Shown: positions 2,528 through 7,804 of the stretch, piece after piece | How positions within the stretch are numbered: the stretch's first letter is position 1 | How the letters are laid out: the number at the start of each line of letters is the position of its first letter | The notes under the pieces: generated by a model | What the model was told of the DNA's origin: nothing | The model's input: the letters and a program-made list of their open reading frames with translations, nothing else | Databases searched by the model: none | DNA from: Deltaproteobacteria bacterium | Lineage (GTDB): Bacteria > Desulfobacterota > Desulfovibrionia > Desulfovibrionales > Desulfovibrionaceae | Direction of reading: 5' to 3' | Assembly (NCBI GenBank): GCA_031253875.1 | Contig: JAIRVN010000023.1 | Span: 1 to 7,804 of the forward strand | DNA length: 7,804 bases | Made by a program: the position numbers and the translations under genes

Positions 2528-4411
2528 TCAGCTGATTCTTTCGAAGCGCTTGGCGCAAGCGACACAGGGCACATCCGGGTCGCCCGAGGCCAGACGCGCC
2601 CTGAAGCGCGCGTATTCCGGTTCATTCCATATGTCCAGCGGGTTCCGCTCCCGTACGGAGCCGAACGCGCGGCGGAACGGGTCGCTTTCGTCCGTGGGCA
2701 GGTTCACGTAAATACAGGGGGCAACGGCGCCTTCCGCGTCGATGTACATGCAGCTCTGCACCCGTTCGCTACAGTCGTTTCCGCCGTGTTCGCCGGGCAG
2801 GGAATAATGGATGGTCCTGCCTGCGGACGCCGCCCTTTCCGCCGCCTCGTGCAGCAGGATGCGGGCGCGCCCGATTTTTTCCGCCTCGTGAGGGGCGTAG
2901 GCCTCGGCCTCCATGCCGGGTGCGGCAATGTAATCAAGGGTGCTCACCACGGCCGCGGGCACATCAAGGCTGCGCATGAGATCCGGCAAGCGGACAACGT
3001 TTTCCGCTTCCGAGGCCAGCATCAGGTAGGCGAGGTGAACGCGGGGGTATTCGCTGCCGGCCAGACGCTTGGCCCGGTTGAGGGCGAGAATGCCGTCGCG
3101 TACCCTTGCGAACGGAATCACGGCGCGGGCGGCGTTACTCGCGCCGTCGACGCCCGTCAGGGAAAAGGCCGCGATGTCAATGCCGCTGTCCACGAACCTG
3201 GCCGCGCTGTCATCGTTAACAGCCACGCCGCACGTTGTGGTGGAGACGGCACTCCCGATGCGCACGGCTGCCGCCGCGTACTCGAAAAAGCGCGGATGCA
3301 GGAGCGGCTCGCCCCAGCCTTGCAGGTGCACGCGTTTCGTCCTGTGGATGAGCGGCGCAAGAGCGGCGAAGGTCGCGTCCTCCATGTAGCGCGAGCGCCA
3401 TACATCCTGCTTGGTGGTGTGCGGGCAATAGACGCATGTGCCGGGGCACCGTGAACTCACCTCAATTTGCAGACAGTCAAAGGGACGTGTTTCACCGAAC
3501 AGGAAGCGGCGTACAGTACCGGAAAAACCCGGCGGGGTGAACACGGCCAGGGGATCGGCGTCCTTCGCCCTTGTTCGCGGCGCGGCGGGCCGCCGCCTGA
3601 CGGAACTGGTCCATGACGTTTGTATGCACGGCAGCCGCAGGCAAGCGCCCCATTTGCCCTTGAATGCCGCAATGCCCTTGTTGACGCCAAGCCCGAGGTT
3701 CAGGTGCTGATGGCCGAGATCCGCAGCCCGGCCCACAATGGCGTGGAGCAGAACGTCCGCCGCGCCGGGCGGGCAGTCAGAACGCCTGAACGCGAACATG
3801 TAAAAAGCCGTGGACAGGCTGGAAAAATCGCCGACGGCAAGGGCGAGCAGGCGGGAGGAAGCGTCCCGGGCGGCAAACAGCGCGGCCTCGGGCGATGCCG
3901 CGAGATATTCCGGAATGCGGCCGTAAATATGCCGCGTGCCCGCCTCAAGCTGCCGGAAATCACGACAGGCCCTGACCAGGGCTGCATGCTCGTTGTTCCA
4001 CTGTTCTTCGGCGACGGTGCATTCGCGGCCCCCCCTGCGCAGCATATTACGCAGGTTTTGCCCCATTTTTTCCACCGGGAGAGCAAGGAACGCGTACGCG
4101 TCTTCCCGGATCGCGGCATCAGGGGGCGCGGCTGCGGGACGAGCGGGGCCGAGCACGGTGAGGGCCGAGCATCCGCCTCCCGCGAGAGCGGCTTTGACCG
4201 CCGCGTTCATGGCCGCTTCGGCGGCTTCGGCGTCCTCATCGGGCAACGCGCCGAGAACATAGGCAATGAGCGTGCGTTGTCCCTCGTAATCATAGGCCAC
4301 GCATCCATCACACAAGACGGGATGCGATTGGCTTACGGCGGCCACATAGCTGACGAGCTGTTCCGGAACCAGGGCCTGGGCCGTGACGTGAGAGAAGGCG
4401 CGCGCATGCAC
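2528..4411 (-). CDS. GNAT-like domain fused to a radical SAM/SPASM enzyme
   Basis: Two-part protein of 627 residues from GTG 4411. The N-terminal half (about 1-270) resembles GNAT/FemAB-CelD-type acyltransferase folds, ending HLNLGLGVNKGIAAFKGKWG (about 236-255); the next gene upstream carries the same ending. After an Arg/Pro-rich linker (about 270-290) comes a radical SAM domain with CxxxCxxC (C322, C326, C329; CPGTCVYC) for the 4Fe-4S cluster that cleaves S-adenosylmethionine, and a GWGEPLLHP motif (365-373). The C-terminus is SPASM-like, with Cys at 547, 554, 566, 616 and 619, an IWN motif and a closing CVAC, which fits an auxiliary iron-sulfur cluster. GTG 4411 is preferred because GGGGAG lies 9 bases upstream and the preceding stop is 2 bp away. 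An in-frame ATG at 4465 (645 residues) has no ribosome-binding site. Reaction and substrate are unknown; SPASM enzymes often modify peptides or proteins. Confidence 0.85.
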   Translation of the reverse strand: MHARAFSHVTAQALVPEQLVSYVAAVSQSHPVLCDGCVAYDYEGQRTLIAYVLGALPDEDAEAAEAAMNAAVKAALAGGGCSALTVLGPARPAAAPPDAAIREDAYAFLALPVEKMGQNLRNMLRRGGRECTVAEEQWNNEHAALVRACRDFRQLEAGTRHIYGRIPEYLAASPEAALFAARDASSRLLALAVGDFSSLSTAFYMFAFRRSDCPPGAADVLLHAIVGRAADLGHQHLNLGLGVNKGIAAFKGKWGACLRLPCIQTSWTSSVRRRPAAPRTRAKDADPLAVFTPPGFSGTVRRFLFGETRPFDCLQIEVSSRCPGTCVYCPHTTKQDVWRSRYMEDATFAALAPLIHRTKRVHLQGWGEPLLHPRFFEYAAAAVRIGSAVSTTTCGVAVNDDSAARFVDSGIDIAAFSLTGVDGASNAARAVIPFARVRDGILALNRAKRLAGSEYPRVHLAYLMLASEAENVVRLPDLMRSLDVPAAVVSTLDYIAAPGMEAEAYAPHEAEKIGRARILLHEAAERAASAGRTIHYSLPGEHGGNDCSERVQSCMYIDAEGAVAPCIYVNLPTDESDPFRRAFGSVRERNPLDIWNEPEYARFRARLASGDPDVPCVACAKRFERIS

Positions 4412-4413
4412 GG

Positions 4414-6186
4414 TCAGCCGCTCCCCTTGAGCCACGCGCGGAGTTTGTGCCGCAGGGTCGGCCATAGCTGCGTGACCGTGAATCCGTCCTCGCGGAGCAT
4501 GTTTTCCAGATTGAGCATGTGGGCCGTTCCCACGAACACGGCGGTGCGCCCCCGCTCGATATGCGGCATCATCCGTTCGCGGAAACGTTGGTCGCGCAGA
4601 CCGATGACCGTGTTGGTGCGGGTCGGGAATTCCGTGCCGGTATCGAGCATGCGCATGAGATCCCCGTCGAGGTACGACGAAAGGCTCTGCCGCATGCGGC
4701 GTTTCCAGTCCTCCGGGCGGCGCAGAAAGTGGATGATCCTTTCCATGGGCACGCTTTCAAGGGAGGCTGTCTGTTCGTCGATGTTCTCCATGCTGATGAT
4801 CCTGCGCCCCATCTCACGGGCGATTTCCCATGCCTCCAGATCCACGGACTGGTTCCAGCCGTGGCGTTCGAGGAAGGCGTAGTACAGCGTGAAAAACACG
4901 GACCACGGCCTGTGGGTGGACAGGATGCCGCGCACGTCCGCCGGAGAATGCCAGGCCATGTTGAGAAACTTGGCGAATGCGCCCTGCGGGCCGCGTACCA
5001 CGCGTTCAAGACAGCGGATTTCGTCTTCTTCCAGGTAATCAATGACGCGCGGGGTATCCGCGTCCCGCGTTCTGCCGTGGCGGCCGAAAGTCGCCAGGCT
5101 TGCGGCATCAAGCGGTCCCTCAAAGATGACAGTGTCCACCCCGGCGAACAAGGCGCGAAAAGCGCCGGCAAAAGAATACCTGAACGAATGCGCCGTGCCG
5201 CCTATCCACGAGGTCTTGCCGTTTTTTGTCAATTTCCAGAGCATGGCGTAAGGACGCTGTTCCGGCAGATATCCGCCAACAAGCATACTGTCGGCATCAT
5301 TATGCCGGGTCTGAGCGGCGCTGAGCAGGGTGTGGTACAAGGCGTCGCGCGCGGACGCTCCCCTGTCGCTTCCTCCGGTATCGCGTCCGCCGCTGCTGTG
5401 GTGTTTCCACGAGGCTGCCTGAAAAGGCAGGGCGGGCACGCCGCCCCATTTTTTTTTGAAGCGGGCGATGCCCTCGTTCACGCCGAGGCCGAGGTGGATG
5501 TACCGCTTACCCCGGGATTGCGCGCTTGCCAGCATGTGGGCGAAAAGGGCGTCGCCAGCGTGCGGAGTATACGCTGTGCGCGAATGCGCCCCGATGATGT
5601 AGGCGTCGAACTCTTCCGGCCCGCAATCCATGACCAGGCATGCCGCGAGCCTGCCGTCCGCGTCCCAGGCGTTCACCAGGCGGATGTCCGTTTCCTGCGC
5701 ATGCACAACAAGGTTTGTCCGCGCGAACAGTTCGCGCACCTGGGGAGTCACTTCCTTGCGGCGCAGGAATTCCATCCACAATTTGCGGTGGGCGGCGGTG
5801 AAATCCCTGCCCTCCTCCACGCGCAGCACCTTTGCCGCTTTGGCGAGAGGGCCGCGTAACTTCCCGGGCACGGGGCTGTCCGAAGGCAATACGTAGAATA
5901 CGTCCGTTTCGGTCACGTACGGCGCGAGGGAAGGGGGGAGTTCCGGCGCAATGGCCCAGCAGGCTTCCGGCGTACGTTCACTGACGACCGTTTCAAGGGC
6001 GCGGGCGAAGGCTCCGGCATCATAGTTCCCTTGCAGGGGGTAGCCGATGGCGATGAGCCAGTCCTTGCCGACAAAGAAAAGAAAGCCGTCGCGGAAAAGC
6101 GCCTCCCCGCCGGACATGGCTTTCATGAACGCGACGGAGTGCTCGGGCACTGTTGTGATACTTGTTACCGGCGGCTGCTCCATCAT
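4414..6186 (-). CDS. GNAT-like domain fused to a TraB/GumN (Tiki/EreA-type) hydrolase domain
   Basis: Protein of 590 residues with two domains. Residues 1-260 form a GNAT/FemAB-CelD-like domain ending YIHLGLGVNEGIARFKKKWG (229-248), homologous to the N-terminal half of the next gene. A Gly/Ser/Arg-rich linker spans about 262-280. Residues about 313-580 carry the TraB/GumN set: MLWKLTKNGKTSWIGGTAH with G330xxH333, FEGPLD (355-360), MENIDEQTASLESVP (466-480), and the C-terminal VFVGTAHMLNLENMLREDGF with a second GTAH (553-556). This superfamily holds the putative metal-dependent Tiki proteases, TraB pheromone-shutdown proteins and EreA-like esterases. Most bacterial GumN-type members are secreted lipoproteins; this one has no signal peptide and should be cytoplasmic. 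No ribosome-binding site precedes ATG 6186, and an in-frame stop nearby rules out a longer start. Substrate unknown. Confidence 0.85.
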   Translation of the reverse strand: MMEQPPVTSITTVPEHSVAFMKAMSGGEALFRDGFLFFVGKDWLIAIGYPLQGNYDAGAFARALETVVSERTPEACWAIAPELPPSLAPYVTETDVFYVLPSDSPVPGKLRGPLAKAAKVLRVEEGRDFTAAHRKLWMEFLRRKEVTPQVRELFARTNLVVHAQETDIRLVNAWDADGRLAACLVMDCGPEEFDAYIIGAHSRTAYTPHAGDALFAHMLASAQSRGKRYIHLGLGVNEGIARFKKKWGGVPALPFQAASWKHHSSGGRDTGGSDRGASARDALYHTLLSAAQTRHNDADSMLVGGYLPEQRPYAMLWKLTKNGKTSWIGGTAHSFRYSFAGAFRALFAGVDTVIFEGPLDAASLATFGRHGRTRDADTPRVIDYLEEDEIRCLERVVRGPQGAFAKFLNMAWHSPADVRGILSTHRPWSVFFTLYYAFLERHGWNQSVDLEAWEIAREMGRRIISMENIDEQTASLESVPMERIIHFLRRPEDWKRRMRQSLSSYLDGDLMRMLDTGTEFPTRTNTVIGLRDQRFRERMMPHIERGRTAVFVGTAHMLNLENMLREDGFTVTQLWPTLRHKLRAWLKGSG

Positions 6187-6292: not shown

Positions 6293-6616
6293 TCAGCGTT
6301 CAGCAAGCACTTTCATCAGCCGGTACACGATTTGCAATTCTTTCATGGGTAGCTTGGGGATGGCAACCATCAATTCCGCAAGTAGTTTTTCTCGATCTTG
6401 TTCGTGCTCAATGTCGAGCATGTCTCGAACAGGCATATCCAGTGCTTCCGCTATCTCTGCCAGGCACTTGATGGAGGCGTTGGCTACGCCGCGCTCGACT
6501 TTTCCCAGATGTTTCACGCTCATTCCAGCTTTTTCAGCAAGTTTGTCCTGAGAAAGCCCTTTGGCGGCACGGAGGGCAAATATACGCCGCCCCAAGCTGG
6601 CATTGATCTCATCCAT
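6293..6616 (-). CDS. XRE-family helix-turn-helix transcriptional regulator (107 aa)
   Basis: Residues about 8-62 are a Cro/C1-type helix-turn-helix: LGRRIFALRAAKGLSQDKLA leads into EKAGMSVKHLGKVERG and the helix IKCLAEIAEALDMP. The C-terminal 45 residues are predicted helical and charged, with LPMKELQIVYRLMKVLAER at the end, probably a dimerisation segment. The start at 6616 is chosen because AAGGAAG lies just upstream with about 4 bases of spacing. The frame stays open further 5', but those codons look like shadow sequence and cross the promoter and inverted repeat. It probably represses its own promoter and perhaps the divergent radical SAM gene. It reads in the same direction as the two fusion genes, 106 bp ahead of the first, so it is the likely regulator of the cassette. 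Base composition is lower in GC than that of the fusion genes. Confidence 0.88.
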   Translation of the reverse strand: MDEINASLGRRIFALRAAKGLSQDKLAEKAGMSVKHLGKVERGVANASIKCLAEIAEALDMPVRDMLDIEHEQDREKLLAELMVAIPKLPMKELQIVYRLMKVLAER

Positions 6617-6618
6617 AG

Positions 6619-6650
6619 TACTTCCTTGTCTAACATAAAAATAGGAAGTA
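6619..6650. repeat. 7-bp inverted repeat in the XRE leader, covering its ribosome-binding site
   Basis: TACTTCC (6619-6625) and GGAAGTA (6644-6650) are perfect inverted copies 18 bases apart. On the minus strand the promoter-distal copy is the Shine-Dalgarno region of the XRE gene (AAGGAAGTACTATG), and the other copy overlaps the TATACT -10 box. It may be a protein-binding operator. A leader hairpin is unlikely, because the predicted transcript would start inside the promoter-proximal arm or after it. Confidence 0.45.
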
Positions 6651-6676
6651 TAGGCCATTATTTGGTTTTTTGTAGA
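6647..6676 (-). promoter_or_regulatory. Candidate promoter of the XRE regulator gene
   Basis: On the minus strand: TCTACA (plus 6671-6676), 18-bp spacer, TATACT (plus 6647-6652, 5 of 6 to consensus). The predicted start is about 25 bases before the XRE start codon. The -35 box overlaps the proximal arm of the 10-bp inverted repeat at 6674-6721 and the -10 overlaps the 7-bp repeat, which fits autoregulation. Confidence 0.45.
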
Positions 6677-6721
6677 ACCGATAAGTCTTGACATTTGCGT
6701 TAACTGTGGCCTATCGGTTCT
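6674..6721. repeat. 10-bp perfect inverted repeat between divergent genes, candidate operator
   Basis: AGAACCGATA (6674-6683) and TATCGGTTCT (6712-6721) are perfect inverted copies separated by 28 bases. The spacer contains TTGACA and the palindrome GTTAAC (6699-6704). The left arm overlaps the -35 of the XRE promoter candidate; the right arm overlaps the -10 of the plus-strand candidate. Binding sites for the XRE regulator are the simplest reading. A recombination or element end is less likely, because no recombinase or target duplication is seen. Confidence 0.6.
6688..6716 (+). promoter_or_regulatory. Candidate divergent promoter towards the right-hand radical SAM gene
   Basis: TTGACA (6688-6693) is a full -35 consensus. 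With 17-bp spacing the -10 is CTATCG, and with 18 bp it is TATCGG; both are poor. Such a promoter could need an activator, or the TTGACA may be chance. A transcript from here would have a leader of about 205 bases. Confidence 0.35.
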
Positions 6722-6927: not shown

Positions 6928-7804
6928 ATGAAACATTTTTCTTCGCTTTATGCGACTATACAAGACACTGTCAAAAATAAAGTTATCAGGGAAAGAAACA
7001 TTTCATGGGAGAAACCGGCTGTCTTTGAAGCCGTATTTTTTGAAGTGGTCAATAAATGCAACTCAACTTGCTCGTTTTGTAGCGCATCTGTGCATAATGA
7101 TACTCGTGAGCGCAAGGAAATGCCGTTTGAATTTTATGGCAACCTCATAGAACAGTTGGTTCAAATGCATTATACTGGTCGCGTAGCTTTTCACGTAGCC
7201 AACGATCCGCTTGTCTCTGCAAACTTGGAACGTTTTGTGGCGCATGCTCGGGCGAAGCTTCCTCAGTGTTGGATACAAATAATGACCAACGGCATCGGCC
7301 TGACCCCAAAACGCGGCGCGGCGCTCATCGATAATGGCATAGACGAATTATACATAAATTTTTACAGAACATCGCGCAAACAAGCATTGTATCCAAATAC
7401 CGCAAAGTTTATCACTGATGTGCTGAAAAAGCGCTTTCCGAATAAAAAAGGTGCTGTCTATACTTCCAGCGATGGAAAATCCAGCCTTAAGTTTACACTT
7501 ACTCCCCGCTTGGTGAAGGAAGTGCTCTGGAGCCGTGGAGGCACTTCGCCAAATAAGCAACCTGATGACTCCAAAGTGAGAGGCTTTTGTCTCTATCCTT
7601 GGACGCAACTGAATATTTCAGCGGATGGGCTTGTATCGAAATGTTGTGCGGACATCTATTTTGACGACGCAATGGGAGATCTCAAAGAGAAATCCATTGT
7701 GGAAATATGGAATGGCGGGCGATTTGTTGATGTCAGAAAAAAGCTCATGCTTGGCGACAGATGTTCTCTACATGGCTGCCGTGAGTGTGACTATTTTGGT
7801 ATTC
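6928..7804 (+). CDS. Radical SAM/SPASM domain protein (partial, runs off the window)
   Basis: The frame is open from ATG 6928 to the last base, giving 292 codons with no stop. It begins MKHFSSLYATIQDTVKNKVI. The CxxxCxxC motif is at C44, C48 and C51 (CNSTCSFC), with EVVNKCN before it as is usual for the first radical SAM strand. The usual G-x-G-E-P motif appears as HVANDPLV instead. A SPASM-type C-terminal region follows: C221 in FCLYPWTQLNISADG, C239-C240, EIWNGGRF, and C279, C284 and C287. It therefore likely carries one or more auxiliary iron-sulfur clusters and may modify a peptide or protein. Only a weak ribosome-binding site (GAG) precedes the start. Codon use is AT-rich (about 40-45% GC by eye against more than 60% in the fusion genes), which suggests separate acquisition. 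It diverges from the XRE gene. Substrate unknown. Confidence 0.85.
   Translation, partial: MKHFSSLYATIQDTVKNKVIRERNISWEKPAVFEAVFFEVVNKCNSTCSFCSASVHNDTRERKEMPFEFYGNLIEQLVQMHYTGRVAFHVANDPLVSANLERFVAHARAKLPQCWIQIMTNGIGLTPKRGAALIDNGIDELYINFYRTSRKQALYPNTAKFITDVLKKRFPNKKGAVYTSSDGKSSLKFTLTPRLVKEVLWSRGGTSPNKQPDDSKVRGFCLYPWTQLNISADGLVSKCCADIYFDDAMGDLKEKSIVEIWNGGRFVDVRKKLMLGDRCSLHGCRECDYFGI

Follow-up and report, generated by a model that had tools for sequence, protein, structure and literature searches.

Why should two unrelated enzymes encoded side by side carry the same extra N-terminal domain? This question is raised by a pair of genes from a Deltaproteobacteria bacterium of the family Desulfovibrionaceae, which lie on the contig JAIRVN010000023.1 (assembly GCA_031253875.1). 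The window, that is, the whole stretch that was analysed, is this one contig of 7,804 bases, and the draft genome from which it comes is rated 58% complete. Gene 1 (4414-6186, minus strand, 590 amino acids) is a fusion of a domain called here GNAT1 with a putative TraB/GumN hydrolase, as delimited from its open reading frame (ORF), Pfam matches, a structure model and relatives. Gene 2 (2528-4411, minus strand) is a fusion of a second such domain, GNAT2, with a radical S-adenosylmethionine (SAM) enzyme. Both fusions represent one rearrangement of a four-part operon of GNAT1, TraB, GNAT2 and radical SAM, which occurs in genomes titled as several phyla and is linked to the genes of dissimilatory sulfite reductase (Dsr). 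There is about an even chance that these four enzymes build and trim an aminoacyl or short-peptide compound from aminoacyl-transfer RNA (tRNA), with a predicted role in sulfite handling in sulfite reducers. Such a pathway would give a testable reason for the shared domain.

The preliminary description of this locus had already placed the two genes on the same strand, 2 bp apart if gene 2 starts at GTG 4411, and this arrangement is confirmed. From this codon, which stands 2 bp past the TraB stop, gene 2 encodes 627 amino acids, while the ORF from ATG 4465 would encode 645. The GTG is the likelier start because a relative in locus L022 begins with MFSRGFSHITAQALVPEQ at the corresponding place, and because residues 1-22 of the ATG form are modelled with pLDDT below 50. 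It was also correctly proposed that the two proteins have a common N-terminal domain. In effect, protein 1 finds protein 2 at 29% identity (E 1.2e-15), so that the GNAT halves are homologous and not unrelated, and a single comparison in a genome where the two are separate genes gives 37% identity over 267 columns (E 2e-69). GNAT1 covers residues 1-265 (5392-6186, minus), and its paralogue GNAT2 covers residues 21-288 (3602-4405, minus; ATG numbering, as for all residues of gene 2 below). When the halves are checked separately with profiles, as had been suggested, PF13480 (GNAT half of gene 1, E 2e-5), PF01963, PF04055 and PF13186 all match above their cut-offs, whereas the GNAT half of gene 2 shows in this protein a weak match to PF09924 (E 0.18) that falls below it.

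The kind of reaction performed by these domains is suggested by their predicted fold, which consists of two tandem GNAT domains in the arrangement of FemX and MprF, and which for GNAT1 is like FemX, Sbb17 and MprF. The nearest fold matches are aminoacyl-tRNA-dependent transferases, namely FemX, MprF and the streptothricin peptide synthases Sba18 and Sbb17 (by PDB title). Among the best 23 fold rows, 22 are such transferases by title, and the remaining one, 2hqy, has no assigned function. Furthermore, the coenzyme A (CoA) loop pattern [RQ]xxGx[GA] is absent after residue 150 in 32 of 34 GNATs, and in the other two it occurs at 223 and 249, off the loop position. Consequently, an ordinary GNAT acetyltransferase was rejected as first choice. 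GNAT1 and GNAT2 are predicted to be most like FemX/MprF-type transferases and would therefore use tRNA. With respect to the preliminary description, the GNAT/FemAB-like halves are now placed closest to this type and not to ordinary acyl-CoA GNATs. An alternative is that the GNAT halves are nevertheless acyl-CoA transferases, or inactive domains for recognition or docking, with no involvement of tRNA. Acetyl-CoA enzymes with the double-GNAT fold are in fact matched, at lower Z (12 to 14.5), a point against the tRNA-dependent reading. Still, the alternative appears the least probable of the explanations considered here, given the missing CoA pyrophosphate loop, the fold rows and the FKxKW motif, which is invariant in all 34 aligned GNATs.

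In the window, this motif forms part of LGLGVNEGIARFKKKWG in GNAT1 (residues 232-248; 5443-5493, minus), where F243, K244, K246 and W247 are invariant (62/62), and of LGLGVNKGIAAFKGKWG in GNAT2 (residues 257-273; 3647-3697, minus). Excerpts of a review (PMC12945691) describe FemABX-type peptide synthases such as Orf11, PacB, VlmA and DhpH-C in natural-product pathways; they give the catalytic lysine as Lys305 in FemX and Lys329 in DhpH-C, and name Phe328 as a key residue of DhpH-C. Judging from sequence order, the Phe-Lys pair of FKxKW would stand at the position of FemX Lys305. The window proteins resemble the FemABX-type synthases (Sba18, Sbb17, Orf11, PacB, VlmA, DhpH-C) in the double-GNAT fold, for which this type gives the strongest named matches, and they have an invariant Phe-Lys pair as a candidate for the catalytic site. 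They differ in that two paralogues are paired here with TraB and radical SAM and are linked to dsr genes.

The likeness to FemX and MprF also allows for a role in the cell envelope. In this case, the acceptor of the GNATs would be a lipid or a precursor of the wall, the added aminoacyl group would be removed or tailored by TraB and the radical SAM enzyme, and the surface would be changed when the cell is stressed by sulfite or sulfide. Among Pfam families, LPG_synthase_C is matched most often (17 of 34 GNATs), MprF and FemX stand near the top of the fold matches, and a membrane permease is linked to some of the loci (see below). Nevertheless, an envelope role seems quite improbable, since the scanned core proteins have no Pfam match to a flippase or to any further membrane domain, and since FemX and MprF pathways are not known to need a radical SAM enzyme. 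Compared with MprF and the lysyl- and alanyl-phosphatidylglycerol synthases (PF09924), the GNATs of the operon have no Pfam flippase, and they are either fused to other enzymes or stand alone at about 280 amino acids.

The second half of gene 1 is, as previously described, a TraB/GumN domain with two GTAH motifs, predicted to be a metal-dependent hydrolase. This domain (residues 315-573; 4468-5244, minus) gives a full-length match to PF01963 (E 7.1e-32, 111.7 bits against a cut-off of 26.8). The first GTAH motif (residues 330-333; 5188-5199, minus) keeps its glycine and histidine in 62/62 sequences, and the second (residues 553-556; 4519-4530, minus) keeps glycine, alanine and histidine in the same number. 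The TraB/PrgY/GumN family is related to the Tiki metalloproteases. The window protein is similar to this family in its full-length Pfam match and its two GxxH motifs, but differs in its conserved operon context, where a FemX-like domain is its neighbour or its fusion partner. A GNAT1-TraB profile found no match up to E 1 among the sequences of solved structures.

In gene 2, a radical SAM core is followed by a twitch-like C-terminal domain (residues 327-640; 2546-3487, minus). The radical SAM half matches PF04055 (4.8e-12), and its CX3CX2C cluster motif (C340, C344 and C347; 3425-3448, minus) is conserved in 57/57 sequences. The C-terminal part also matches SPASM (PF13186, 2.1e-9), a domain that is defined by two auxiliary clusters and seven cysteines. 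Here, five cysteines are present, of which four (C565, C584, C634 and C637; 2555-2773, minus) are invariant, each in 57/57, and C572 is found in 24/57. Thus, the assignment to the radical SAM and SPASM profiles holds, but the cysteines point to a twitch-like domain and not to a seven-cysteine SPASM. With respect to known Twitch and SPASM enzymes (BtrN, BlsE, DesII, PqqE, SuiB), the window protein lies far under the cut-offs of all 22 matched NCBIfam models. The best of these is TIGR04317, a radical SAM maturase of tungsten cofactor oxidoreductases, with 98.3 bits against 380 (152.6 against 380 for a standalone relative), and a role in tungsten-enzyme maturation was rejected on this score. An aldehyde oxidoreductase-like gene, named by eye, lies near the operon in six locus records; these are mostly from one family, so a tungsten link is not general. 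Phage defence by a prokaryotic viperin (pVip) was likewise not favoured, as the viperin-like stretch is weak: 28.5 bits over residues 335-444 only, from a model without a curated cut-off.

How these parts belong together is seen best beyond the window. The locus set consisted of 159 records, of which 20 were dropped because they held no core gene or were copies of the same contig, leaving 139 distinct loci; those without GNAT1, or with less than 5 kb on either side of it, were then left out, leaving 78. Within 6 kb of GNAT1, TraB is present in 77 of the 78, GNAT2 in 68 and radical SAM in 59; a YeiH-like permease is found in 14 and an NF038143 protein in 10. In the order sample (297 genomes), 75 genomes carry GNAT1-TraB or parts of it, and 68 of these 75 have at least two matches, mostly with the paralogous GNAT alongside. 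The layouts observed there are GNAT1-TraB / GNAT2-radical SAM, as in the window, GNAT1-TraB-GNAT2 / radical SAM, and GNAT1-TraB / GNAT2 / radical SAM. The 75 GNAT1-TraB carriers and the 65 radical SAM carriers coincide in 49 genomes (Fisher p = 3e-23, uncorrected for relatedness).

In the phylum sample (Desulfobacterota, by matching record names), 30 of 395 genomes match at E 1e-20, including the window's own genome and four others of its family. The more distant carriers often have GNAT1, TraB, GNAT2 and radical SAM as four separate adjacent genes, and the parts are unfused in the majority of distant loci. A scan of named genomes, in which 78 loci were kept from the best 80 of 90 matches, adds loci titled as Deltaproteobacteria and Desulfobacterota groups, Nitrospirota, Nitrospinota, Chloroflexi and Tectomicrobia, with one each labelled Betaproteobacteria and archaeon. 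Nearly all named carriers are metagenome-assembled, so single odd taxon labels may be binning errors. The recurrence with variable flanks that had been named as support for a system is therefore observed, both in the window's phylum and under other phylum titles. The pair recurs and no named system was found for it in the literature searched, but the fusion is a derived form of the four-gene operon, so that the two-fusion layout is not the system itself. A quick GNAT2 tree has well-supported branches which require the GNAT2-radical SAM fusion to have arisen two or more times; nine of the fused rows belong to the window's family, and another, L156, to family f61. Such a natural fusion series shows which parts work together. 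There are further variants: a single open frame at L160:5453-7429 comprises GNAT1, part of TraB and a radical SAM domain, and may reflect either a further type of fusion or the way the contig was assembled, while L176 and L178 (Nitrospirota) have two TraB genes in the operon, which flank GNAT2 on either side.

The purpose of the operon is suggested by its association with Dsr, which, together with that to a YeiH-like permease, goes beyond the preliminary description. At 10 of the 139 distinct loci, dsrA lies within 5.3 kb of the operon or of a YeiH or NF038143 gene (12 records before L143 with L167, and L161 with L228, were merged by contig). By rough arithmetic, in which 20 kb is 0.5% of a 4-Mb genome, 139 loci should have about one such neighbour or fewer; as there are relatives among the ten loci, these are not independent. 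For instance, the order in L169 is YeiH, GNAT1, TraB, GNAT2, radical SAM, a few small frames, dsrA, dsrB, a gene of 80 amino acids (read by eye as dsrD, with no NCBIfam match), a CobB-like gene, which we take to be of DsrN type, and a dsrC-family gene.

A similar trend is observed when whole genomes are compared using TIGR02066 for dsrB. In the phylum sample, dsrB is found in 26 of the 30 carriers versus 28 of 50 non-carriers (one-sided p = 0.004); the table includes all carriers and 50 of the 365 non-carriers, taken in steps of about seven through G301-G644. Outside the window's phylum, dsrB is above cut-off in 17 of 21 carriers, and a further set of 36 carriers has matches in 30, of which 27 are above cut-off. 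In both of these sets, any record that holds one or more GNATs of the system counts as a carrier, some being fragments only, and in the set of 36 the genome of L223 appears to be assembly G391 of the phylum sample, as contig number and position agree. The sharpest test comes from a class with few dsr genomes, that of the Chloroflexi carrier G680, which includes G683 (titled Anaerolineae). Of its 150 genomes, 7 have dsrB and 3 the operon, and dsrB is present in each of these 3 (p = 6e-5), which were already known as carriers when the test was made. Both of the remaining Chloroflexi carriers have dsrB as well.

Taken together, these features are consistent with a pathway in which both GNATs would act on the same acceptor, each of them transferring a single amino acid from charged tRNA to an amine. 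The attached residue would then be oxidised, epimerised or cross-linked by the radical SAM enzyme, and TraB, with its two GTAH motifs, would cleave an amide or ester bond, either releasing the product or proof-reading it. The YeiH-like permease may carry the product, or sulfite, across the membrane. The fusions of GNAT1 with the hydrolase and of GNAT2 with the radical SAM enzyme fit a model in which one intermediate moves from station to station, each of which recognises this acceptor. We suggest, more tentatively, that this tRNA-dependent pathway, with FemX-type loaders, a twitch radical SAM enzyme, TraB release and a YeiH-type permease, is a Dsr accessory in several phyla, and that its product could be a new peptide-like cofactor, sulfur carrier or sulfite scavenger. 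As dissimilatory sulfite reduction is central to the sulfur cycle and to sulfide production in the gut, a conserved but optional tRNA-dependent set tied to Dsr would connect the substrates of translation with energy metabolism, and would point to a new compound or modification.

The closest parallel in logic is that of the pearlins. According to the parts of two reports that were available (PMC9303977, PMC9016710), peptide aminoacyl-tRNA ligases add an amino acid from tRNA onto a scaffold, where it is modified and then released by proteolysis. By contrast, the pearlin ligases are LanB-like and not GNAT-like, as stated in the excerpts of PMC12945691, and no scaffold peptide was found at the operon loci. 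If the proposed chemistry is right, a stricter reading may be that the operon is a variant of tRNA-dependent peptide biosynthesis. In literature searches that named the parts of the system, judged by titles and the beginnings of abstracts and with most subscription journals outside their coverage, there was no description of this layout. Each enzyme family is known, while within this coverage no description was found of the set, its genomic link or its purpose, which would make it new at the system level.

Several observations weigh against the proposed tRNA-dependent pathway and its tie to Dsr. The structure models of genes 1 and 2 have pTM of 0.61 and 0.59, so the relative placing of the halves within each fusion is not fixed. 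No radical SAM gene is adjacent at any of the five Chloroflexi loci (one of them, L183, ends inside GNAT2), and this enzyme may thus be optional. A set of 7226 small ORFs, taken from around the core genes in the 159 locus records (except those whose core stretch exceeds 15 kb), gave no precursor peptide or acceptor conserved beyond single clades, and the clade-bound clusters look like non-coding frames. The permease is near GNAT1 in just the 14 loci mentioned. Arginyltransferase matches are, where shown, far below the curated cut-off (17.5 versus 170 bits). With regard to Dsr, the operon is present without a dsrB match in G074, which is rated 100% complete, as well as in G392, G446 and the window's own incomplete draft; dsrB is also under its cut-off in 4 of the 21 carriers and without a match in 6 of the 36, many of them fragmentary. 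Conversely, dsrB occurs in the operon-free genomes counted above for the window's phylum, and in 4 of 147 in the class of G680. The operon is therefore not needed for Dsr, and a required Dsr maturation factor was rejected for this reason. Given the four dsrB-negative carriers, it is better seen as an accessory found mostly in dsr-bearing cells than as a condition for Dsr.

The main rival of a pathway to a small compound is protein modification, in which the GNATs would attach amino acids to a protein, either at its N-terminus or on a lysine, by analogy with arginyl- and leucyl-transferases, the radical SAM enzyme would alter the residue and TraB would trim it. The target could be a protein of sulfur metabolism or NF038143 ("HYxxLL"), whose members recur near the operon or its radical SAM gene, often in two or three copies. 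Such proteins could also be the scaffolds of the pathway proposed above. In the order sample, NF038143 and GNAT1-TraB do not co-occur (12 of 38 carriers, p = 0.22), which counts against that pathway, and none of the NF038143 carriers in the window's own family has GNAT1-TraB. As a fixed partner of GNAT1-TraB, NF038143 is therefore unsupported in this sample, though the two are physically linked in several families. Moreover, FemX, Sbb17 and MprF give better fold matches than protein transferases do, no target protein was found that all carriers share, and dsr genes are also present where the operon is missing. Protein modification is considered rather unlikely. In L115, L116 and L117, radical SAM, NF038143 and YeiH-like genes are found together with no TraB or GNAT alongside, and may form a sub-module.

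The YeiH-like permease of the window (Cons_hypoth698, PF03601; 495-1970, plus strand) is convergent with the operon and is the recurrent neighbour counted above. Its similarity to the YeiH/COG2855 sulfite-resistance permeases lies in a score above the PF03601 cut-off (81.4 bits against 24.5). It differs in falling far below the TIGR00698 cut-off (33.2 bits against 232.6) and in having about 150 residues ahead of the matched part. A small protein with a hydrophobic stretch, noted by eye, recurs next to YeiH in some families.

Other genes are also observed near the operon. A histidine kinase and a response regulator recur in some families; at L166:16509-18071 and L157:1410-3383, on the same contig, the kinase has a CxxCH haem-like motif by eye, with the response regulator alongside. 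A cluster of kinase-like proteins is found near 21 locus records. In family f30 (L142, L158, L215, L222), a TusA-like and a YedE-like gene, both named by eye, are at most 0.3 kb away from an operon gene; in a Bilophila-like locus (L083, L231), the distance is about 1.5-1.7 kb. Sodium/calcium exchanger-like genes, also by eye, lie near one Chloroflexi locus and, within the window's phylum, near six records (L177:10117-11046, L205:398-1429 and relatives).

In the window itself, a gene for an XRE-type helix-turn-helix protein (6293-6691, minus) lies directly upstream of GNAT1-TraB on the same strand, with a single weak match among the fetched loci (26%, E 7e-6, in L112). A third gene (6928-7803, plus), cut by the contig end, encodes a radical SAM/SPASM protein of another family. 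Residues 2-32 of this protein are 97% identical to a piece at G000:C87:4976-5068, and its similarity to the operon radical SAM protein is weak (25-28% over 109-145 amino acids). Finally, a bacterial small signal recognition particle RNA is found at 152-237 on the minus strand (55.8 bits).

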